Below are positions 942 through 59,815 of a stretch of DNA of 64,000 nucleotides, one piece after another (the stretch's first letter is position 1; each line of letters opens with the position of its first letter). This DNA comes from Acidobacteriota bacterium (GTDB taxonomy: Bacteria > Actinomycetota > Acidimicrobiia > Acidimicrobiales > Microtrichaceae), in contig QEUP01000015.1 of assembly GCA_003577145.1 (NCBI GenBank), positions 62,001 through 126,000 of the forward strand, given 5' to 3'. The notes beneath the pieces were generated by a model. The model was not told the DNA's origin. It saw only the letters and a program-made list of their open reading frames with translations, and searched no databases. Position numbers and translations under genes: made by a program.

Positions 942-3900
942 TCAAGCGGGGATGGCCCTACCGGAAGCGACCATCGAGTAGGCGGTTCGCCACCCGGTGG
1001 CTTCGATGCCCAGGCTCTTCAACCGCTGTTCGGCATCGTCGCACACCATCGCGGCCCGGTGATCGGCCTGCTCGGTCAACGCCACCCCTTCCGCCAGTCT
1101 GACAAGGGCCTGCGCGACGACGTCGTCGGTCGAGTCCGCCCGCTCCTGAGCCGTCACGAAGATCGACTCGCACTTCTCGACGCCTTCGCCGCGGCTGGTC
1201 ACCAGACCGGCCGCGATCTCGGCGGTGAGCCGGTCGAGGTAGGTGGCACGCGGGCTCTCAGCCACCTCTTCGACCCGCGCCAGAGCCTCGTCGTCGCGTC
1301 CCGCCGCACCGAGCGCCAAGGCGAGAGCCGAGAGGATGTAAGGACTCGGACCCAAGTCGTTGTCCGCGCAACAAGCGAGCTCCAGCACTTCGATGGCACC
1401 GGGGACGTCACCGCTCTGGAGCCGCCCCAGCCCAACGGCCACCAACTCGTCAGTGCGTCCGATCGCCGACAGATCGACTTCGTCGGCTCGAGGGTCTTGT
1501 TCGATCAGCAGCGCCGGATGCGGATCGCCGAGCTGGACCGCCGCGTTTGCCAACGAGATCGAGCTGAGCTCCTTGTAACGTGCCTCGCTCTCACCCATCT
1601 CGAGGGCAGCCGCCCTTTCGAGTGCGGCCATGCCGTCGACGATCCTGCCCATCGCGACGAGCGCGCGACCGTGGATCGCCAGAGCCTGCTGTAGGCCCAT
1701 CGTCTCGCTCAGGTCCTGGAATCGCTCGATCGCCCGGTCAGTAGCAGAGGCCGCGTCAGCCGCTCGGCCGGACCACAGCTCCACGCTGGCGATCACCACC
1801 TCCATCATGCCCTGACCCCAGCGATCGCCACGCTCCACCGCTTCGTGATGCACTCTCTGGGCGAGCTCGATCCCCTCGTCGAAATGGCCCTGGTGGAACT
1901 TCACGAAGGCCAGCAGGCCCAGGGCCCATCCGCGTCCCACACCGTCGCCGAGATCGGTGAAGGTAGCCGCTGACTCGCTCAAGCGCTTCTCTGCGTCGTA
2001 GACCTTCCCGTCGGTGAACTCGATCCATGCCAGGTTCTGCAAGGCCCATGCTTCGCCCCGGCGATCGCCTGCCTCGCGGTACGAGTCCAGGGCCGCAGAT
2101 ATCGAGTCGCGGGCCAGTTCGAGCTCTCCCCGCACGAGATCCTGGAAGCCCGAGTACCGCAGCGCTTCAGCGCGGCCCTGCTGATCACCTATGGCCTCGA
2201 ACTCCTCGATGGCACGGGCCAGCGACGAGCCGGCCTCCTCGAAGTCGCCCTCCTTGGTGGCGATCCCGCCGCCGATCATCGTGGCCCGGGCATGAGACCT
2301 CTTGTCACCGATGCCGTCGGCCATCTCCAGCGCGGCCTCGACATCGGCCCGGGCCTCTTTCAGGTTCCACATCTCGAGGTTGGCGTGGGCCCGCCCGACG
2401 AGGAGGCTGAGGTGGTCCGGACCGGCACCAGGACCCAGCAGCTCCAAGCCCTGGCTGAAGAAGCGTGACGACACCGGGTGGACATGAGCCTGTTCAGCGC
2501 GCCTCGCCGCCTCCCGGATCCATTTCAACGCCCGCTCGGCCAGCTCAGCCCGCTGTCCGTCGCTACTGCCGATCTCGCGCGCGATGAGTGCAGCCTCCGC
2601 GTAATGGCGGGCGATCAGGTCGACCACGCCATCATCGACGAAGCGATCGGCGAAGACGGCTTCCAGGTAGGCCGCGATGCCGGAGTGGCGCCGCATGCGA
2701 TCGGACTTGGTCAGCCGCGAGTAGGCGATCTCACGGACCAGATCGGACCTGAAAGCCCAGTCCGTCCCGTCGAAGGTCAGGATCTCCTTCTCTGCCAGCG
2801 ATTCGACGATGTCGCCGACATCAGGGATGTCCCTGATCCACTCCGACATCTTGTCGAGGACGTCGAGCGAGCCCCGGGACCCCCACACCGAAGCGTCCTC
2901 GAGCGTGTCGCGCTCGTCCTGGCCGAGACCATCTAGGCGGGCCGCCACCAGGCCCCGCAGGGTGTCGGGCAGGTCGCTGACCGACACGTCCGTCACCGTG
3001 CCGACGCCCACCTCGCTCAGCAGCACAACCAACTCCTCGAGGAAGAACGGATTGCCGCCACTGCGATCCAGCAAGACGTCCCTGAGGTCGGATGGGATGT
3101 CGGACGCCAACAAGGCATCGAGCAACAGCTCAGCCGAGTCGCGGTCGAGTGGATCGAGGTTCACAACCAGGCTGTTGTGTCGTCCCGCCCGCGGCGACCA
3201 GCGCTCGATCAGTGACCGCCGGGCCGTCGCCACCATCAGGAAGGGATGTCGACCCAGCTCCTCGGTCAGGTAGTCGATGGTTTCGAGGACGATGTCGTCG
3301 GCCCAGTGCAGATCCGCGATCCGGACCATGATGGGGCGCTGCTGCGCCGCGGCCTCGATGTAGACGTGCAGCGACTGGGACGCCTCGGCGCGAGCCCGCT
3401 CGGGTTCGATGTGACGCAGCGGGCCCTCTAACCCCATCAGGTACAGGAGCCCGTTGACGACCCTTGTGACATCGGGGTGCGACTCGGGATGGCCCAGAAC
3501 CCGCGCCACCGCCGTGGTCGTCTTCGAGGTTGCCTCGGTGAGAGAGTCGTCTTGAGTCACGCCGCTGCCGTTGCGCAACGCCTCGGCGATCGGCCACCAG
3601 ACGTTGGCCTCGCCATAGGGGACGCTGCGGCCGTCGAGGACGAGCATGTCGTGTTCGACCTCGGCCAGAGCTGCCAACTCCTCGGCGAGGCGGGTCTTGC
3701 CCACACCGGCCTCTCCGAGGATGAGGATCTGCTGGGCACGCCGGTGGCCGACCGCGGCATCGACGGCGTTGCTCATCATCCCCAGTTCGGCGTCTCGGCC
3801 GACCAATGGGGCTCTCAGGCGACGTGGGCGGTAACCGGGTGGCGCCAGCGCCGCGATGGCCACCCACACGTTCACGGGCTCCTCCCTACCCCGCGCCACG

Positions 3901-31860: not shown

Positions 31861-33153
31861 ATGCGCCCGGCCCAGCGAACTGCTGCCTGGGCCCGACGGC
31901 TGCCGGGGCCCGACGATCCGCTGCGGATCGCCCTGCTCTCCTATCGTGGCAAGCCGCACTGCGGCGGGCAGGGCGTCTACGTCCGGCACCTGAGCAAGGC
32001 GCTCGCCGATCTCGGCCATCAGGTGGAGGTCATGTCCGGCCAGCCCTACCCCGAGGTCGACCCCCGGGTACCGCTGGTGAAGTTGCCGAGCCTGGACATC
32101 TACAACGACTACTTCCCGATGAGGATGCCCGGCATCTGGGAGCTGAAGACTCTCGGCGACTGGGTCGAGGTCACGCAGTTCTCTGCAGGCACGTTCCCCG
32201 AGCCGCTTGCCTTCTCGGTACGGGCCGCCATGCACCTACGCCATAGGCTCGACGAGTTCGACCTCGTGCACGACAACCAGTCCTTGGGTTACGGGCTGCT
32301 CGCCATCGAGGCCATGGGCCTTCCCGTGCTGGCCACGATCCACCATCCGATCACCGTCGACCGGCGGCTCGAGATGGAGCACGCCGAGACCGTCTGGAAG
32401 CGGTTCTCGAAAGCTCGCTGGTACAACTTCACGAAGATGCAGACGCGCGTGGCGCGGCGCATGAAGAGGGTCGTGACGGTCTCGGAATCCTCGCTGGCCG
32501 ACATAACCGCCGATCATCAGGTCCCGGTGGGAAACCTCCACGTCGTCCCTGTCGGGGTCGACCCGGATCTGTTCCGACCGCTCCCCCATGTCACTCGACG
32601 CCCCCATCAGCTCATCACCACCGCCAGCGCGGACGTGACGATGAAGGGCCTCCGGTACCTCCTGGAGGCGGTCGCCAAGCTGCGCACCGAGAGGCCGGTG
32701 AACCTCGTCGTCATCGGCAGGCTCAAAGAGGACAGCGCGGCGGCTCGCACGATCGACTCCCTCGGGCTCAACGACGCCGTCGATTTCGTCAGCGGTGTCA
32801 GCGACGAGCGGATCGTGGAGCTGTACGCAGAATCGGCGCTGGCCGTCGTGCCCTCTCTCTACGAGGGATTCTCGCTCCCGGCGATCGAAGCGATGAGCTG
32901 CGCCGTTCCCCTCGTGGCGACGACGGGGGGCGCTCTCCCGGAGGTCGTGGGCAACGACGGCGAGACCGCCATCCTCGTCGAGCCCGGCGACAGCAACGCC
33001 TTGGCCACAGCCCTGCGGCGCGGACTCGACGACCCCGAGCGGTCGGCGGTGATCGGGCTCGCTGGTCGTGAGCGAGTAGCGACCCGCTGGTCCTGGAGAA
33101 ACACCGCCCGACGTACCGTGGAGCACTACCGAGCCCTGCTGGCGGGTGGCTGA
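31861..33153 (+). CDS. GT4-family glycosyltransferase
   Basis: Encodes 430 aa from ATG 31861. GT-B fold: N-terminal ALLSYRGKPHCGGQGVYVRHLSKALADLGHQVEV, linker region VPVGVDPDLFRP, and the C-terminal nucleotide-sugar site with the EX7E motif (SLYEGFSLPAIEAMSC). Long interior helices after IHHPITVDRRLEMEH suggest a membrane-surface association, but there is no transmembrane segment. Its stop codon abuts the methyltransferase ATG (TGAATG), and a third gene overlaps that one. Acceptor unknown. Confidence 0.88.
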   Translation: MRPAQRTAAWARRLPGPDDPLRIALLSYRGKPHCGGQGVYVRHLSKALADLGHQVEVMSGQPYPEVDPRVPLVKLPSLDIYNDYFPMRMPGIWELKTLGDWVEVTQFSAGTFPEPLAFSVRAAMHLRHRLDEFDLVHDNQSLGYGLLAIEAMGLPVLATIHHPITVDRRLEMEHAETVWKRFSKARWYNFTKMQTRVARRMKRVVTVSESSLADITADHQVPVGNLHVVPVGVDPDLFRPLPHVTRRPHQLITTASADVTMKGLRYLLEAVAKLRTERPVNLVVIGRLKEDSAAARTIDSLGLNDAVDFVSGVSDERIVELYAESALAVVPSLYEGFSLPAIEAMSCAVPLVATTGGALPEVVGNDGETAILVEPGDSNALATALRRGLDDPERSAVIGLAGRERVATRWSWRNTARRTVEHYRALLAGG

Positions 33154-33909
33154 ATGCTCACCGTCGACTACGACCACCTGGGCCTGAACGCCGGTGACCT
33201 CGTCCTCGACATGGGGTGCGGCGCCGGCCGCCACGCCTACGAGTCGTTTCGCCGGGGGGCACGCGTCGTCGCCCTCGACTACTCGGCCGGTGAGCTGAAG
33301 GAGGTCCGGGACCTCTTCGCCGCACTGGAACACGCAGGTGAGGCACCCTCACCGGGCTTCGCCGCGACCGTCAACGGCGACGCCCTGCGGCTCCCCTTCC
33401 CCGACGAGTCCTTCGAGCGGGTCATAGCGTCGGAGGTCCTCGAACACATCCCTGACGACGACGGGGCCATCACCGAGTTGGCCCGCGTGCTCAAACCCGG
33501 CGGCACCATGGCCGTGACCGTGCCCGCCTGGCTCTCGGAACGGATCTGCTGGGCACTGAGCGACTCCTACCACGCGCCGATCGCCGCAGGCGGCCATGTG
33601 AGGATCTACACCGAGAACGAGCTGCGGACGAAGCTACGGCGCTCGGGGTTGTCAGACGGCCGATCCCATCTGAACCATGCGCTGCACGCCCCGTACTGGT
33701 GGTTGCGCTGCATCGTCGGCCCCACCGATGATCAGCACCCGCTCGTCAGGGCGTACCATCGCCTGCTCGTATGGGACATCGCCAAGGCTCCACGGCTCAC
33801 GCGAACCACCGAGAAGCTGCTCAACCCGGTGATCGGCAAGAGCGTGGTCGTCTACTGCCAGAAGCCCGCCTACCGGACCAGACCGGAGTACGCCGATGAC
33901 GCTGCCTGA
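33154..33909 (+). CDS. Class I SAM-dependent methyltransferase
   Basis: Encodes 251 aa, starting immediately after the glycosyltransferase stop. The SAM site VLDMGCGAGRHAYESFRRGA is motif I; VIASEVLEHIPDDDGAITELARVLKPGG is the typical UbiE/Methyltransf_11 motif II-III region. The C-terminal part (HAPYWWLRCIVGPTDD, LLVWDIAKAPRLTR) is aromatic and basic, as in lipid- or polyisoprenoid-modifying enzymes. Coupled to both neighbours in a three-gene operon; substrate unknown. Confidence 0.88.
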   Translation: MLTVDYDHLGLNAGDLVLDMGCGAGRHAYESFRRGARVVALDYSAGELKEVRDLFAALEHAGEAPSPGFAATVNGDALRLPFPDESFERVIASEVLEHIPDDDGAITELARVLKPGGTMAVTVPAWLSERICWALSDSYHAPIAAGGHVRIYTENELRTKLRRSGLSDGRSHLNHALHAPYWWLRCIVGPTDDQHPLVRAYHRLLVWDIAKAPRLTRTTEKLLNPVIGKSVVVYCQKPAYRTRPEYADDAA

Positions 33910-34966
33910 AGTGCCCGGGATCCTCTCCGCTGACGAGGTGAGTTCAACGGTCGACGCCATCGCCGAGTGGCAGCTCCCGAGCGGCATGATCCCGTGGTTT
34001 CCCGGCGGGCACGCTGACCCCTGGAACCACGTCGAAGCCGCCATGGCCCTGGCTCTCGGCGGGCGGCGAGGCGAGGCCGAGCGCGCCTACGAGTGGCTGG
34101 TGAGCACCCAACGTCCTGACGGAGCCTGGCACCAGTACTACCTCGAGGACCGCATCGAGCAGGACAAGCTGGACGCGAACTGCTGTGCCTACGTCGCCAC
34201 CGGTGTGTGGCACCACTACCTGCTGTTCGGGGACACCGGCTTCCTGGAGTCCATGTGGCCCGTCGTCGAGTCGGCCATCGACTTCGTTCTCGAGCTCCAA
34301 ACCCCGCGAGGCGAGATCATCTGGGCACGTCACGCCGACGGCACACCCTGGTCGTTCGCGCTGCTGACGGGGTCATCGAGCGTCTGCCACAGCCTCCGCT
34401 GCGCCATCGCCGTCGCCGAGCATCTCGGCCACGAGCGGCCTGACTGGGAGCTCTCGGCGGCCCGCCTGGCCCAGGTCATCGCCGACGAGCCCGACGCCTT
34501 CGCACCCAAGCACCGCTGGGCGATGGACTGGTACTACCCGGTGCTGTCCGGGGTGCTACGGGGCAACGACGCCATGACCCGCCTCGACGAGCGGCGCGGG
34601 ACCTTCGTGATGGAGGGCAAAGGAGTCCGGTGCGTGGCGGACCGTCCGTGGGTGACCGCCGCCGAGACCTGCGAGTGCCTCATGGCCTACCTCTCGATCG
34701 GTGAGATCGATCATGCCCACACCCTCTTCGAGTGGGCGCAGTCCCTCCGTGCCGACGACGGTCACTACTGGACAGGCATCGTGTTCCCGCAGCTCATCCA
34801 CTTCCCCGGTGAGGAGAAGTCCACCTACACGGCCGCTTCCGTGATCCTCGCCGCCGACGCCTTGAGCCGGACCAGCCCCGCCTCTTCGCTGTTCGTGGAC
34901 CACGACTTCCTGCCCGACCTGATCGACCTGCACACCACCGCTGACCTCAACAACAGCCTCGACTAG
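33896..34966 (+). CDS. Alpha/alpha-toroid protein (prenyltransferase/cyclase-like fold), unknown function
   Basis: Encodes 356 aa; the ATG lies inside the methyltransferase gene (14-bp overlap). It is made of helical-hairpin repeats with a QxxxGxW motif (STQRPDGAWHQYY), as in terpene cyclase and prenyltransferase toroids, and with six-hairpin-glycosidase-like aromatic/acidic stretches (MIPWFPGGHADPWNHVEAAMAL, WAMDWYYPVLSG, ADDGHYWTGIVFP). The DXDD motif of squalene-hopene cyclases is not present, and the protein is about half the length of those enzymes, so a cyclase assignment would be unsafe. Its partners suggest work on a glycosylated lipid or glycan. Confidence 0.75.
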   Translation: MTLPEVPGILSADEVSSTVDAIAEWQLPSGMIPWFPGGHADPWNHVEAAMALALGGRRGEAERAYEWLVSTQRPDGAWHQYYLEDRIEQDKLDANCCAYVATGVWHHYLLFGDTGFLESMWPVVESAIDFVLELQTPRGEIIWARHADGTPWSFALLTGSSSVCHSLRCAIAVAEHLGHERPDWELSAARLAQVIADEPDAFAPKHRWAMDWYYPVLSGVLRGNDAMTRLDERRGTFVMEGKGVRCVADRPWVTAAETCECLMAYLSIGEIDHAHTLFEWAQSLRADDGHYWTGIVFPQLIHFPGEEKSTYTAASVILAADALSRTSPASSLFVDHDFLPDLIDLHTTADLNNSLD

Positions 34967-35003
34967 AGCCGGCGTAGTGTTCCACCCGCCACCTACACGG
35001 CTC
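34966..35003 (+). terminator. Terminator-like hairpin after the GT4/methyltransferase/toroid operon
   Basis: GAGCCG starting at the stop codon (34966) pairs with CGGCTC (34998-35003), extended inward by GTAG/CTAC after a small bulge; the loop is about 15 nt. There is no U-tract. The position directly after the last operon gene supports a terminator. Confidence 0.4.
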
Positions 35004-35050
35004 GAGGCCTGCCTTTGAGGCACGCCGCCGACCCGAGCATGATGGTGGGG

Positions 35051-35507: not shown

Positions 35508-35963
35508 TTACGACGCCGGCCTCGACGAGACGAGGTCGACGCCTATGGGCTCGTCGACCTCGAACGCAGGAATACAGCAGGTGAGGTCGGTTCGGCAGGC
35601 CGAGGGTGGCGGCGAGCCTTCGAGGCCGGCCCGTACTGCGTCGAGCTGCGCCGAGAAGCTCTCGAGTGCGCTGATGCGCTCGGCGATCTCCGTCTGCTTT
35701 TCAGCGATCAGCTGTCCGACCCGTTCGTGCGCGGCACCGCAGTTGGTGCCATCCCAGATCGGAAGCAGCTCACCGATCTGCTGGCAGCTCAAGCCCATCT
35801 TGCGGGCCCGCGAGACGAACAGCAGACGCGCAGCCGCATCCTCGTCGTAATCGCGGTAGCCCGAGGCCGTGCGAGCAGGAGGCGCGAGCAGCCCCACCCG
35901 TTCGTAGTACCGAATCGTGGATGTCGGCACCCCGACCCGGTCGGCGAGCTCGGCGATACGCAC
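35508..35963 (-). CDS. MerR-family regulator with C-terminal Cys motif
   Basis: Encodes 151 aa from GTG 35963, 6 nt behind a TATGGT box. The MerR winged helix is canonical (MRIAELADRVGVPTSTIRYYERVGLLAPPARTASGYRDYD), followed by the dimerisation helix (IAEKQTEIAERISALESFSAQLDAVRAGL). Cys residues at NCGAA and in a C-terminal CRTDLTCC cluster resemble heavy-metal or thiol sensors of the ZntR/MerR type, though the spacing is not one I can assign to a metal. It is divergent from the cupin gene, whose promoter carries a well-formed MerR operator. Confidence 0.88.
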   Translation of the reverse strand: MRIAELADRVGVPTSTIRYYERVGLLAPPARTASGYRDYDEDAAARLLFVSRARKMGLSCQQIGELLPIWDGTNCGAAHERVGQLIAEKQTEIAERISALESFSAQLDAVRAGLEGSPPPSACRTDLTCCIPAFEVDEPIGVDLVSSRPAS

Positions 35964-35969
35964 CCGTCC

Positions 35970-35975
35970 ACCATA
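35970..35975 (-). promoter_or_regulatory. -10 box TATGGT of the MerR-family gene (leaderless)
   Basis: Minus-strand TATGGT, 6 nt before GTG 35963. It lies about 33 nt from the -35 box of the divergent cupin promoter, so MerR binding could affect both. Confidence 0.4.
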
Positions 35976-36007
35976 AACCCTTCACCCCGGTTCATGGTCA
36001 AGCCCCC

Positions 36008-36039
36008 TTGACCTTGCATTCGAGTGCAGGGCTTACGCT
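36008..36039 (+). promoter_or_regulatory. MerR-type promoter/operator of the cupin gene
   Basis: -35 TTGACC (36008-36013) and -10 TACGCT (36034-36039) are separated by 20 bp, the lengthened spacer used by MerR activators. The spacer holds a dyad, CCTTGCATTC/GAGTGCAGGG (36012-36031), 16 of 20 positions symmetric. It is divergent from the MerR gene and 68 nt upstream of the cupin ATG. Confidence 0.7.
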
Positions 36040-36106
36040 CACCGCATCGACCACCCACACCACAGGCGGCAGCGAGAAACGCCGTCCCGACCACGAGGGG
36101 AACACC

Positions 36107-36481
36107 ATGCCCAAGATCAGCAAAGACAACGCCCCTGATGCTCTCACGCTGGAAGGCTACGAAGGCCACTTCGGCGAGCTCGGCGACTACACCGTCGGCT
36201 TCGAGACCTATACCGCCGAGGCCGACCTAGCGGACCTGTTCAAGGGCCTCCCCGAGGACCGCTGCCAGTGCCCCCATTGGGGAGTTGTCCTCAAGGGCAA
36301 GCTCGAGTACACCCACGACGGCGGTGAGACCGTTGTCGAAGCCGGCGAAGCCTACTACGTCCCGGCGGGCCACCTCCCCTACCTGTACGCCGGAACCGAG
36401 GTGATCGAGTTCAGCCCCACCAAGGAACTCGTCGAGACCCTCGAGGTCGTCGAGAAGAACATGGCCGTACCGCGGCAGTAG
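36107..36481 (+). CDS. Small cupin-domain protein under MerR control
   Basis: Encodes 124 aa; ATG 36107 follows GAGGGGAA. Single cupin: GVVLKGKLEYTHDGGETVVEAGEAYYVPAGHLPYLYAGTEVIEF. It has two closely spaced Cys and a His (RCQCPHWG) just before the cupin core. The metal-binding HxH of classical cupins is not evident. The promoter architecture implies induction by the neighbouring MerR regulator; ligand and reaction are unknown. Confidence 0.8.
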   Translation: MPKISKDNAPDALTLEGYEGHFGELGDYTVGFETYTAEADLADLFKGLPEDRCQCPHWGVVLKGKLEYTHDGGETVVEAGEAYYVPAGHLPYLYAGTEVIEFSPTKELVETLEVVEKNMAVPRQ

Positions 36482-36668: not shown

Positions 36669-37334
36669 TCAGCCGAATCGAGCATCGGGCACGTGCTCTG
36701 AGCCGTGGGCGAGACGGCGGAGGATCCGCAGCGAGCCGACTTCGCGCACTTCCTCGAAGTTCCCGGACTCGATAGCCCTCAGGTAGATCTCATGGGGGGG
36801 GCGGCCCCCGTCTGCGGGGTCGGGGAAGACGTCGTGCACCGCGAGGATGCCGCTCGGTGCGACAAAGGGGGTCCACATCTCGTAATCGCGATGAGCGGGC
36901 TGCTCACCGTGGCCGCCGTCTATGAAGAGCAGGGCCAGTGGGGTGGTCCAGTACCTGGCGACGGTGGGCGAGTCACCGACCAGCGCCACCACCCAGCCCT
37001 CCAGGCCGGCCTCGTGAACCGTGCGCCGGAAGAACGGCAGGGTGTCCATCACGCCCAGCTCGGGATCCATCAGCGTGGGATCGTGATGCTCCCAACCCGG
37101 TTGGTTCTCCTCCGAGCCGCGGTGATGGTCCAAGGAGAACAAGACGGTGTCCCGTTCCCTTGCGGCCGTCCCCAAATAGACCGCTGACTTGCCACAGTAG
37201 CTCCCGATCTCGAGCAGCGGTCGACCGGGTACCGCTCCAACGGCTTCGAGGCCGGCCTCGTAGAGGGCTATGCCCTCGTCGCCGGGCATGAAGCCTCGCG
37301 CCGCCTCGGCGCGGGCCAACTGGCTCGGATCCAT
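36669..37334 (-). CDS. Class I SAM-dependent methyltransferase
   Basis: Encodes 221 aa from ATG 37334; an ATG at 37370 would overlap gtrA by 29 nt. Motif I is PLLEIGSYCGKSAVYLG, with SLDHHRGSEENQPGWEHHDP and LLFIDGGHGEQPAHRDYEMWTPFV, the Methyltransf_24-type pattern with an acidic/His pocket. It closes with SLRILRRLAHG. It is co-directional with and just downstream of GtrA, so possibly a glycan or sugar-lipid methyltransferase. Confidence 0.8.
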   Translation of the reverse strand: MDPSQLARAEAARGFMPGDEGIALYEAGLEAVGAVPGRPLLEIGSYCGKSAVYLGTAARERDTVLFSLDHHRGSEENQPGWEHHDPTLMDPELGVMDTLPFFRRTVHEAGLEGWVVALVGDSPTVARYWTTPLALLFIDGGHGEQPAHRDYEMWTPFVAPSGILAVHDVFPDPADGGRPPHEIYLRAIESGNFEEVREVGSLRILRRLAHGSEHVPDARFG

Positions 37335-37341
37335 CGCGGCT

Positions 37342-37833
37342 TCAGGCGACTTCGGTGGCGCTGTCGACACCAGCGGCAGTGGAGGCCTTGCGCGCCAGGT
37401 AGTGGTGGCGGCCGAACATCACCCGATCGAGGATCAGGAACTTGGCTATCCAGATGACACCGAAGGCCGTGAGGCTGGCGATGTTGACCGCCAACTTCCA
37501 GTCGGTGAAGGTCTCGACCCACGCCACGGCAAGGGTGGACAGGATCAGGCCGACCAATGCCATGATCCAGAAAGGCAGGACCTCGGTGGTGAAGCGGTTC
37601 TTGTCCTTCTTGCCCCACACCCAGTAGCGGGTGAGGAGATAGGCGGGGATGGTCGTGACGGTCACCGCGATGAGATTCGACACGGTCCCGGGCCAGTCGA
37701 GGACGTTCACGCAGAACCAGAGGATGGCCTGGCCGAGAGGGACGTTGATGGCCGAGACGGCGACGAATCTGACTGCTTTCCTGCCCTGCTCGGAACGGGC
37801 ACGCTCCATGAGGGCGGCGGGGGTGATCACCAT
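37342..37833 (-). CDS. GtrA-family membrane protein
   Basis: Encodes 163 aa with four predicted helices: KAVRFVAVSAINVPLGQAILWF, VSNLIAVTVTTIPAYLLTRYWVW, FWIMALVGLILSTLAVAWV and VNIASLTAFGVIWIAKFLILDRVMF. This is the GtrA fold, with the conserved RYWVW after helix 2. GtrA proteins are linked to flipping of lipid-linked sugars. The methyltransferase follows after 7 nt. Confidence 0.85.
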   Translation of the reverse strand: MVITPAALMERARSEQGRKAVRFVAVSAINVPLGQAILWFCVNVLDWPGTVSNLIAVTVTTIPAYLLTRYWVWGKKDKNRFTTEVLPFWIMALVGLILSTLAVAWVETFTDWKLAVNIASLTAFGVIWIAKFLILDRVMFGRHHYLARKASTAAGVDSATEVA

Positions 37834-58458: not shown

Positions 58459-58737
58459 TCAGCTACCTCCGGCAACTGCCGGGATGATCGACAGCGTCTC
58501 GCCTTGCGGCACTGTTGTGTCGACGCCGTCCATGTACCGAACGTCGTCGTCGGCCACGAAGATGTTCACGAACCGGCGGATGCCTCCATCGTCGTCGAAG
58601 ATCCGCTCCCTGAAGCCCGGATGGCAGGCCTCGAGGGCTGACAGGACCTCCCCGACGGTGGAGCCTTCGACCTGCACCTCGGACTGACCGGCGGTCAGCG
58701 TGCGCAGGGTTGTCGGGATTCGGACGGTAACGCTCAC
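58459..58737 (-). CDS. MoaD/ThiS-family sulfur carrier-like protein
   Basis: Encodes 92 aa from GTG 58737. Beta-grasp fold: VTVRIPTTLRTLTAGQSEVQVEGSTVGEVLSALEACHPGFRERIFDDDGGIRRFVNIFVADDDVRYMDGVDTTV, ending LSIIPAVAGGS. Sulfur carriers normally end in a free Gly-Gly, which is adenylated; here one Ser follows. CysO- and QbsE-type systems can use a protease to expose GG. The role (molybdopterin, thiamine, Cys or thio-metabolite) is open. The Mo-enzyme gene pair is 3 kb away on the same strand. Longer frames to 59058 are antisense to gpgS. Confidence 0.82.
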   Translation of the reverse strand: MSVTVRIPTTLRTLTAGQSEVQVEGSTVGEVLSALEACHPGFRERIFDDDGGIRRFVNIFVADDDVRYMDGVDTTVPQGETLSIIPAVAGGS

Positions 58738-58909
58738 GAGTCCATCTCTTTCTTGGCCTGGCTCATGCTGCCTCGCAAGGACAGGTCGGTCAACCGGCGA
58801 GGCTCCACGGGCATTCCCAGTGCGCCTGGTAGAGGTCAGCCGGCACCGATCCTTGTGTCGATTCGGTTCCGGCATCGTATTGCGACGGGTCCCCACATTC
58901 GGTGACCAT

Positions 58910-59815
58910 GTGATCGTGCCGCCACCGGGGATCCGTTCCTTCAGCCACCGGGACTTCCCGGTAGCCACCCTCGCCGAAGCCAAGGGCGAGGTGTCCGTGT
59001 CGGTCTGCCTTCCCGCCAAGAACGAGGCCGCCACAGTCGGGAGGATCGTCGCGACCATCCACGAAGAGCTCGTGGCCGGAGTCGCGATAGTGGACGAGAT
59101 CCTCGTACTGGACGACTACAGCGAGGACAACACCGCCGAGGTCGCCCGGAGCGCCGGGGCACGGGTCGTCCACGCCGGTCAGGTACTCCCAGAGCACGGT
59201 CGTGGCAAGGGGAAAGGCGAGGTTCTCTGGAAGTCCCTCTATGCGGCGATCGGAGAGATCGTCGTCTGGTGCGACGCCGACATACGTGAGTTCGGGAGCC
59301 GGTTCGTGAGCGGCACCCTCGGTCCGATGCTCCTCGACCCGGAGATCGTGTTCGTGAAGGGCCACTACCGGCGACCCGTCGAGGGGTCACTCGGAGGCGG
59401 GCGGGTGACAGAGCTCGTCGCCAGGCCGCTGCTGTGCTTGCTGTTTCCCGAGCTCGCTGACATCGTCCAGCCCCTGTCGGGTGAGTACGGCGGACGGCGC
59501 GCAGTTCTCGAACGGATGCCCTTCGCCCAGGGATACGGGGTCGACATCGGCTTGCTCATCGACATCGTCACCGACACGGGGGTGCGAGGAATCGCCCAGG
59601 TCGACCTCGAGGTGCGCCACCACCGCAACCGCCCCCTCGACCAACTCGCCCCTCAGGCGATGGCGATCATGCAAACCGTGCTGCAACGCGCCGACCCCGA
59701 TCTCGTCAAGACCGTCGAGACGCTGATGAGACCCGAGCACCCCCACGAGATCGTCGACGTCAGCAACCGCCCGCCTCTCATCGAGCTCGACTCGTACTCA
59801 CCCGGTCGGGGCTGA
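58910..59815 (+). CDS. gpgS: Glucosyl-3-phosphoglycerate synthase-like GT81 enzyme
   Basis: Encodes about 301 aa from GTG 58910 (GTG 58916 also possible). GT-A fold: VSVSVCLPAKNEAATVGRIVATIHE, VDEILVLDDYSEDNTAEVARSAGARV, then the GpgS hallmark LPEHGRGKGKGEVLWKSLYAA, the metal-binding DAD at 122-124 (VWCDADIREFGSRF), and QPLSGEYGGRRAVLERMPFAQGYGVDIGLLIDI. It transfers glucose from NDP-glucose to 3-phosphoglycerate, the first step to glucosylglycerate and, in mycobacteria, methylglucose lipopolysaccharide. The phosphatase partner is not in this window. Confidence 0.88.
   Translation: MIVPPPGIRSFSHRDFPVATLAEAKGEVSVSVCLPAKNEAATVGRIVATIHEELVAGVAIVDEILVLDDYSEDNTAEVARSAGARVVHAGQVLPEHGRGKGKGEVLWKSLYAAIGEIVVWCDADIREFGSRFVSGTLGPMLLDPEIVFVKGHYRRPVEGSLGGGRVTELVARPLLCLLFPELADIVQPLSGEYGGRRAVLERMPFAQGYGVDIGLLIDIVTDTGVRGIAQVDLEVRHHRNRPLDQLAPQAMAIMQTVLQRADPDLVKTVETLMRPEHPHEIVDVSNRPPLIELDSYSPGRG

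Follow-up and report, generated by a model that had tools for sequence, protein, structure and literature searches.

The window, i.e., the whole 64-kb stretch of DNA analysed, carries three successive open reading frames on the plus strand, listed at 31861–33153, 33154–33909 and 33896–34966. The stop of the first and the start of the second abut (TGAATG), and the second and third overlap by 14 bp. An earlier interpretation made from the letters alone, here called the sequence-only reading, had described a three-gene, same-strand unit with abutting or overlapping ends, and the coordinates and both junctions bear it out. The first frame encodes a GT4 glycosyltransferase of 430 aa, a homologue of ManT (410 bits, E 1.8e-121 to 7qsg_A). 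The second encodes a class I SAM methyltransferase of 251 aa (PF08241, 1.8e-22), the homologue of pMeT3. The third encodes a 356-aa (α/α)6-barrel protein, the homologue of MmpH (383 bits, E 1.2e-113 to 7qsj_A).

A hairpin had been placed 3′ of the last gene. One is present on the plus strand at about 34966–35003, but it is marginal and has no T-run: the 71-base stretch used for the fold test (34960–35030), which contains the mmpH hairpin plus a second one, gives a z of −1.9, and 7 of 200 shuffles fold equally well. The hairpin is absent from the terminators listed by a terminator scan. A terminator after mmpH is therefore unsupported.

The arrangement of the trio is conserved. In the 80 named loci, the closest of a set of at least 594 relatives, the methyltransferase gene directly precedes mmpH in every case, and ManT lies ahead of both, in the same order and on the same strand, in 76. 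Three of the four loci without ManT end at a contig edge; the fourth, L052, does not. Because order and strand are kept in 76 of 80 loci, the arrangement is not due to chance, and the trio behaves as one conserved unit that fits methylated-glycan work.

The toroid is a homologue of the endo-α-mannosidase MmpH, as judged from sequence and from a predicted model. The match to 7qsj covers residues 3–337 of 356 with 170 of 333 residues identical (51%). The model (pLDDT 94.8) superimposes on 7qsj with a TMq of 0.94 and an rmsd of 1.0 Å, and among the best 50 structure neighbours 7qsj stands at Z 56.8, the next entry at 35.4. The structure comparison proposed earlier, glycosidases against prenyltransferases, comes out on the glycosidase side, with the MMP (methylmannose polysaccharide) endomannosidase as best match. 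The protein is predicted to have endo-α-(1→4)-mannosidase activity. The barrel is common to the GH15 and GH63 (α/α)6 glycosidases, but the nearest of these enzymes, dextran dextrinase 9ju0 (Z 35.4), GH63 YgjK 5ca3 (30.7) and glucodextranase 1ug9 (30.3), share 12–14% identity with the window protein and represent a separate family. There is also a weak, below-cut-off match to the oligosaccharide amylase model TIGR01577 (6.3e-15). GH125, named by PMC9883506, is not among the best 50 structure neighbours listed.

The ManT homologue is 51% identical to 7qsg_A (207 of 405 aligned residues). In the alignment, it keeps the residues G15, H142, K240, D293, E313, G314, F315, L317 and E321 of the published enzyme, while L291 is replaced by V. 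In the alignment to the crystal chain (the 410-bit match), the window enzyme has H161, K262, E335 and E343. It is predicted to be an α-(1→4)-mannosyltransferase using GDP-mannose, and for donor supply a mannose-1-phosphate guanylyltransferase-like gene is present elsewhere in the genome. The methyltransferase shares 51–60% identity with its positional counterpart in 11 loci of family f37, which is probably the mycobacterial family, as its MmpHs reach 86% identity to 7qsj and the tree nests 7qsj within it. The window enzyme is a putative 3-O-methyltransferase of mannose units; the 3-O-methyltransferase activity of pMeT3 is putative in mycobacteria as well (PMC9883506).

A fourth cluster gene, meT1, was overlooked by the sequence-only reading. 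It lies at 36669–37370 on the minus strand, convergent with the trio, 1.7 kb 3′ of mmpH with two genes in between. Its product (PF13578, 3.9e-21) has a sole PDB match at E 0.001, 6g7d_A (236 bits, E 5.2e-69), which we take to be MeT1, the entry being titled ‘Methyltransferase domain protein’. It is predicted to act as a 1-O-methyltransferase for the reducing end. A mycobacterial-family locus showed the neighbour, and the match of the window ORF to 6g7d speaks against a cluster without MeT1. MeT1 is seen in 64 of the 80 named loci closest to the window (of at least 594 relatives), downstream and on the opposite strand in all 64; in seven named loci with 1.8–6.0 kb 3′ of MmpH, it was not found. 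Among the 30 own-order genomes of the phylum sample, 26 have MeT1 within 10 kb of MmpH on the same contig. The distance is 14 kb in G113, and the two genes are on separate contigs in G156, G252 and G382. In G374, MeT1 shares its strand with MmpH.

The two intervening genes encode a MerR-family regulator (35508–35963, minus strand; PF13411, 6.1e-19) and a small cupin protein (36110–36481, plus strand; PF07883, 1.2e-07; start picked by eye within ORF 35921–36481), and both are taken as bystanders. Beyond meT1, and overlapping it by 29 bp, is a gene for a GtrA-like small membrane protein (37342–37833, minus strand; PF04138, 1.3e-13). Conserved neighbours were counted in 40 named loci that have some 6 kb of flank on either side: MeT1 (39), GtrA (37), Lnt (35), a TesB-like thioesterase (25), DTD (25) and HemG (19). 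The TesB-like thioesterase is a tempting acyl-CoA link; TesB has no match in the 64-kb window. Among the neighbour clusters listed, no further glycosyltransferase that might start the chain is kept across many loci. Because genes with no obvious connection recur just as frequently, no fifth enzyme is claimed.

Taken together, the window holds a complete four-gene cluster, manT-pmeT3-mmpH with a nearby convergent meT1. We propose, with a probability of about 0.86, that this gene set makes and recycles MMP or a close relative. The steps would be as follows. ManT would transfer mannose from GDP-mannose in α-(1→4) linkage onto oligomannosides of at least three units, and pMeT3 would putatively methylate the newly added mannoses at O-3. 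MeT1 would place a 1-O-methyl cap at the reducing end. MmpH would cleave completed chains, and the defined fragments so released would serve as primers for further ones. For the mycobacterial enzymes, all four steps have been either shown or proposed (PMC9883506).

The M. hassiacum cluster consists of MHAS_04402 (ManT), 04403 (pMeT3), 04404 (MmpH) and 04405 (MeT1), and the same four genes in the same order make up the cluster of Mycolicibacterium hassiacum, M. smegmatis and M. avium (PMC9883506). The trio had been put forward as an undescribed pathway, the best unassigned candidate in the window; since the mycobacterial MMP cluster has matching genes in matching order, that claim falls. A methylated lipid or glycan had also been suggested. 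The glycan part fits, but it is not new, and by analogy the product would be a cytoplasmic polysaccharide, not a lipid. The window MmpH and ManT are each 51% identical to the crystal chains and keep the catalytic residues, and meT1 is convergent as in most f37 loci. The differences are that the window host is Acidimicrobiia-like and that MeT1 is set off by 1.7 kb and two genes. A related polymer, the acetylated MMP of Streptomyces griseus, comes from an actinobacterium outside the mycobacteria (PMC9883506). In family f32, putatively Streptomyces, MeT1 lies about 3–10 kb off, centre to centre. The methylglucose lipopolysaccharide (MGLP) pathway, whose first enzyme, GpgS, is encoded in the same window (58700–59815), makes a sister polymethylated polysaccharide, but one based on glucose; the available text of PMC9883506 places none of the four MMP genes in it.

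The active site of the window MmpH departs from that of M. hassiacum. In the alignment, the catalytic base E262 (E257 in the window) and the acid candidate D47 (D41) are conserved, and each position is kept in 115 of 115 aligned rows, some of which come from the same genome and from which rows of less than 85% query coverage and L001, L002, L083 and L113 had been dropped; a further row, L134 of family f15, has Asn at the Asp47 position. At three of the 11 active-site residues named in the paper, the window protein differs, with N44 for D50, C96 for F102 and Y311 for W315 (M. hassiacum numbering). Since these three residues are not matched, we call the protein a homologue of MmpH whose site is altered. 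Asp50 and Phe102 are among the site residues highly conserved in other genera; Asp50 is an acid candidate or a sugar contact, Trp315 is a plausible stacking residue, and Asp50Ala drastically lowers the activity of M. hassiacum MmpH (PMC9883506). Given the three changes and the Asp50Ala loss, the substrate or rate may differ. Asp47 is labelled only a putative catalytic acid by the crystal study (PMC9883506). Because the MmpH of the order has Asn at the Asp50 place, Asp47 (Asp41 in the window) is the most likely candidate for the acid.

The own order was compared with the mycobacterial family f37 plus f32 over all four enzymes. Positions were called fixed at 95% or more of rows, and the count was confined to these two groups. 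In 1142 columns, only D50N and W315Y are fixed but different. Both fall in MmpH (323 columns); ManT (395), the pMeT3 homologue (234) and MeT1 (190) have none. In the 30 own-order rows, position 102 holds V, C or T and in no case F. The chance of both fixed differences hitting the 11 named residues is 0.001 over all 323 MmpH columns, and 0.03 when the count is restricted to the 55 columns at which both groups are fixed, 10 of the named ones being taken as fixed. The clustering is thus suggestive and not proof. To judge from Asn50 and Tyr315, the −1 subsite is most likely altered in the order's MmpH. What is new is that these two residues, both at the MmpH active site, are the sole fixed differences across four enzymes, and the clade amounts to a natural experiment on two named residues of that site.

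D50N and W315Y would allow a different polymer, a special case of MMP: an α-(1→4)-mannan with other substitution or length, MmpH being retuned at positions 50, 102 and 315. The two fixed differences, both placed in the active site by PMC9883506, and the absence of Phe at position 102 from the 30 own-order rows speak for such a polymer. On the other side, ManT and both methyltransferases have no fixed differences, and Asn50 is found as well in families f10, f15, f20 and f44, with Trp315 retained wherever readable. W315Y needs only one change on the MmpH tree, and it therefore counts as a single event. Moreover, f32, if it is indeed Streptomyces, retains the mycobacterial MmpH residues though the S. 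griseus MMP is acetylated (PMC9883506). We regard the variant polymer as possible but doubtful. In the same tentative spirit, the Acidimicrobiales may make a distinct methylmannan, with MmpH re-specified by D50N and W315Y and the synthesis enzymes without fixed change; the polymer would therefore be substituted differently or yield primer fragments of other sizes.

An unlikely explanation is a cell-surface or lipid glycan, in which the nearby GtrA and Lnt would flip and attach the methylated mannan. It draws on the GtrA and Lnt matches in 37 and 35 of the 40 full-flank loci, but a tblastn search (1e-5) finds no GtrA in the loci retrieved for own-order families f2, f3, f5 and f6, for f10, or for families outside the class, and these same loci have the MMP genes. 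DTD and HemG, which have no evident link, are likewise kept nearby, so the neighbourhood alone says little. Far more improbable still is that the toroid is a half-length cyclase-like terpenoid or prenyl enzyme acting on a lipid. It has one QxxxGxW motif (QRPDGAW, residue 72), the motif noted by the sequence-only reading, a weak PF13249 match (E 0.011), a 46-residue squalene-hopene cyclase match (3.9e-06) and a barrel common to some cyclases (8pak_B, TMq 0.63, rmsd 5.9; 8zg5 and 1w6k, 0.53). M. hassiacum MmpH, however, has the same motif (QRPDGSW), many sugar enzymes score at or above 8pak_B in the structure comparison, and the squalene-hopene cyclases 3sqc and 1sqc reach only TMq 0.34 with an rmsd above 10 Å. 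No terpene cyclase is among the best 50 structure neighbours listed, an absence that alone is not evidence. With the MmpH match over most of its length, the fold agreement and the missing DXDD, which had also been noted, a terpene cyclase or prenyltransferase identity is rejected for the toroid, as the sequence-only reading had anticipated for a cyclase.

The preferred MMP reading extends well beyond this locus. MmpH and MeT1 go together: across 396 sampled genomes of the phylum, 64 have both, 1 has MmpH alone, 2 have MeT1 alone and 329 have neither. In that sample the listed genomes without a match, ordered by kinship, start at the level of the same class, so we take it that no own-order genome is without a match. 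In 148 genomes of the order (completeness at least 90%), the counts are 133 with both, 3 with MmpH alone, 4 with MeT1 alone and 8 with neither, some MmpH matches being fragmentary or split (G403, G474, G497, G466, G456). The MmpH tree, which excludes L150, follows the large groups. Because the gene set is in most sampled genomes of the order and the tree follows these groups, it looks like an old actinobacterial trait. No report of MMP in Acidimicrobiia was found in the open-access literature searched. The gene set is common in a second actinobacterial order, presumably Acidimicrobiales, many genomes of which are metagenome-only. One carrier, Aquihabitans sp. G128 (L033), has an isolate-style name and is a place to seek the polymer.

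The three genes lie on the plus strand and encode a GT4 glycosyltransferase homologous to ManT (31861–33153; PF00534, 1.2e-32), a class I methyltransferase homologous to pMeT3 (33154–33909; PF08241, 1.8e-22), and a homologue of MmpH (33896–34966), for which a Pfam search gave no family above the cut-off. As the sequence-only reading stated, the genes abut or overlap: TGAATG joins the first stop and the second start, and genes two and three share 14 bp. The hairpin it placed after the last gene is indeed present 3′ of the third gene, but it is marginal and without a T-run.

In a search of solved structures, the third protein, an (α/α)6 toroid, overwhelmingly matched MmpH (7qsj), the methylmannose polysaccharide hydrolase from M. 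hassiacum; the match spans residues 3–337 and scores 383 bits (E 1.2e-113). Structure comparison, which had been proposed earlier, gave the same best hit: a predicted model of the window MmpH (pLDDT 94.8) fits 7qsj with a TMq of 0.94 and an rmsd of 1.0 Å, at Z 56.8 versus 35.4 for the next entry. The toroid carries QxxxGxW, and its sequence has no DXDD motif, both as first described. The former is no mark of a cyclase, since MmpH itself has it. On these motifs and the MmpH matches, the terpene cyclase reading is rejected. The barrel's likeness to cyclases is TMq 0.63 (rmsd 5.9) for 8pak_B and only 0.34 for 3sqc and 1sqc, and many sugar enzymes score 0.6–0.7 against the model.

Against solved structures, the glycosyltransferase scored 410 bits with 7qsg, versus 99.5 bits for the next solved glycosyltransferase. 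The depositors label 7qsg "D-inositol 3-phosphate glycosyltransferase"; its numbering agrees with each of the ten ManT residues of PMC9883506 that were checked, and on this ground we treat it as ManT. Nine of these ten are the same in the window homologue, L291 being V. For the methyltransferase, the solved structures include no more than general relatives (the best at 61 bits), and its assignment to pMeT3 comes from its position between ManT and MmpH, as in the published locus order (in M. hassiacum, ManT MHAS_04402, pMeT3 04403, MmpH 04404, and MeT1 04405; PMC9883506, main text). It is 51–60% identical to the intervening gene of 11 loci of an inferred mycobacterial family, f37.

A fourth gene of the cluster, a MeT1 homologue, is at 36669–37370 on the minus strand (236 bits to 6g7d, its sole PDB match), with one MerR regulator gene and one cupin protein gene between it and mmpH. 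The entries 6g7d, 6g80, and 6h40 bear the title "Methyltransferase domain protein"; we read them as MeT1, and the position of the gene in the cluster supports this: at the mycobacterial-family locus L112 its counterpart is the gene next after MmpH, on the opposite strand (2543–3235).

The sequence-only reading took the pathway to be undescribed. This does not hold, as the methylmannose polysaccharide (MMP) pathway is already known (PMC9883506). The main text of that paper treats mycobacteria, names homologues in Corynebacterium, Rhodococcus, Streptomyces, and Nocardia, and does not contain "acidimicrobi"; a search of an open-access library found no paper with both "methylmannose" and "acidimicrobi". 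The cluster therefore ranks as an addition to a known pathway. What looks new is an MMP-type cluster in this host, together with a testable MmpH active-site variant. By analogy with the model in the main text of PMC9883506, MmpH would cut mature chains asymmetrically, ManT would lengthen the fragments with GDP-mannose as donor, the putative pMeT3 would methylate O-3, and MeT1 would cap the reducing end. A mannose-1-phosphate guanylyltransferase-like gene is on contig C2 of the same genome. A neighbourhood scan of MMP loci gave no convincing candidate for a chain-starting enzyme.

The trio is conserved: of the 80 named loci closest to the window, drawn from at least 594 relatives, 76 have ManT, the methyltransferase, and MmpH in this arrangement, on one strand. 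Three of the four loci without ManT are at contig ends. The fourth, L052 (1–1776), has the methyltransferase and MmpH and no ManT match in 1.8 kb of N-free upstream sequence, by loss, rearrangement, or assembly error. Of the same nearest 80, 64 have MeT1, in every case 3′ of MmpH and convergent with it; the gap between the match ends ranges from 13 to 5054 bp (median 373). In nine of the other 16, the sequence stops less than 1 kb behind MmpH; seven (L009, L044, L052, L055, L058, L073, L077) show no MeT1 despite 1.8–6.0 kb downstream. Elsewhere, MeT1 and MmpH share a strand in genome G374 (L156) and at L119, L146, and L148, and MeT1 is upstream at L126.

Across a phylum sample of 396 genomes, 65 carry MmpH, 66 carry MeT1, and 64 carry both. 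The one MmpH-only genome (G242) is 68% complete, with MmpH less than 100 bp from a contig end; the two with MeT1 alone are a contig-end fragment (G046) and a weak match (G272). Both genes are found in 30/30 genomes from the window's family and order, its own counted, and in 1/8 of other orders of the class. They lie on one contig less than 10 kb apart in 26 of the 30, 14 kb apart in G113, and on different contigs in G156, G252, and G382. An order sample of 148 genomes (completeness at least 90%) has MmpH in 136, MeT1 in 137, both in 133, and neither in eight, with MmpH alone in G403, G474, and G497 and MeT1 alone in G440, G462, G491, and G510. Fisher values for co-occurrence are 2e-70 (396) and 1.6e-8 (148), the genomes being related and the trials thus not independent.

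In a quick MmpH tree, one branch (SH-aLRT 97) sets off the 30 own-order rows, another (96) f37 together with 7qsj, and another (100) f32, possibly Streptomyces. Of the tree's 62 inner branches, 21 score below 80, and the rows L149 and L148 are long. This is compatible with, and does not prove, old and mostly vertical descent. The window MmpH is nearer G134 of family f4 (78–80%) than its own family f1 (65–69%), unlike ManT, the methyltransferase, and MeT1, which resemble the two to much the same degree. Metagenome bins that go by the titles Bifidobacterium breve (L023, L029, L036), Thermoanaerobacterales (L017), and Acidobacteria (L022) hold MmpHs 69–73% identical to the window's; these titles are probably wrong.

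Eight of the 11 checked active-site residues of PMC9883506 are the same in the window MmpH; the other three, Asp50, Phe102, and Trp315 of M. hassiacum, are Asn44, Cys96, and Tyr311 there. In M. hassiacum numbering, Asn50 and Tyr315 are shared by all 30 rows of the own-order families f1–f9 (two from one genome, G274), in which residue 102 is V, C, or T; the f3 row has an additional Ala at 163. D50, F102, and W315 are found in 11/11 rows each of f37 and f32. Among other families, f10, f20, and f44 (one row each) pair Asn50 with Trp315, f15 has Asn50 in five of six readable rows, and f52 (two rows) and f64 (one row) pair Asp50 with Trp315. When the 30 own-order rows were compared with 23 rows of f32, f37, and 7qsj, only D50N and W315Y, of 323 columns, were fixed (at least 95% of rows) but different, and 53 were fixed and equal. 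The same test found no fixed-but-different column in ManT (395 columns), the methyltransferase (234), or MeT1 (190). According to the main text of PMC9883506, Asp47Ala and Asp50Ala each drastically lower MmpH activity and one of the two may be the acid, Asp47 being labelled the putative acid. Since a clade with Asn50 keeps Asp47 and the full set of partner genes, the sequence comparison argues for Asp47 as the catalytic acid. The MmpH homologue at L134 (f15) has Asn at both positions; possibly it is inactive, or it counts against Asp47 as a universal acid.

A GtrA-like membrane protein gene (37342–37833, minus strand) overlaps meT1 by 29 bp. Among 40 named full-flank loci (L003–L082), 37 contain a match to it, as do f1, f4, f7, f8, and f9 (one of two genomes); the loci examined from f2, f3, f5, f6, and f10 and from outside the class gave none. 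The gene at L035:9506–10438 and its like, presumably TesB-like acyl-CoA thioesterases, have no match within the window. In 25 of the 40 full-flank loci, and in at least one genome of each of f1, f2, f4, f7, f8, and f9, such a gene follows the MMP cluster within a few kb. The proposal that MMP sequesters acyl-CoA makes this neighbour worth noting, but unrelated neighbour genes are kept as well as it is. The window also holds, along with the MMP cluster, a gene for GpgS, glucosyl-3-phosphoglycerate synthase (58700–59815, plus strand; NF010496, 350 bits, cut-off 262), which catalyses the first step towards MGLP, a sister polymethylated polysaccharide.
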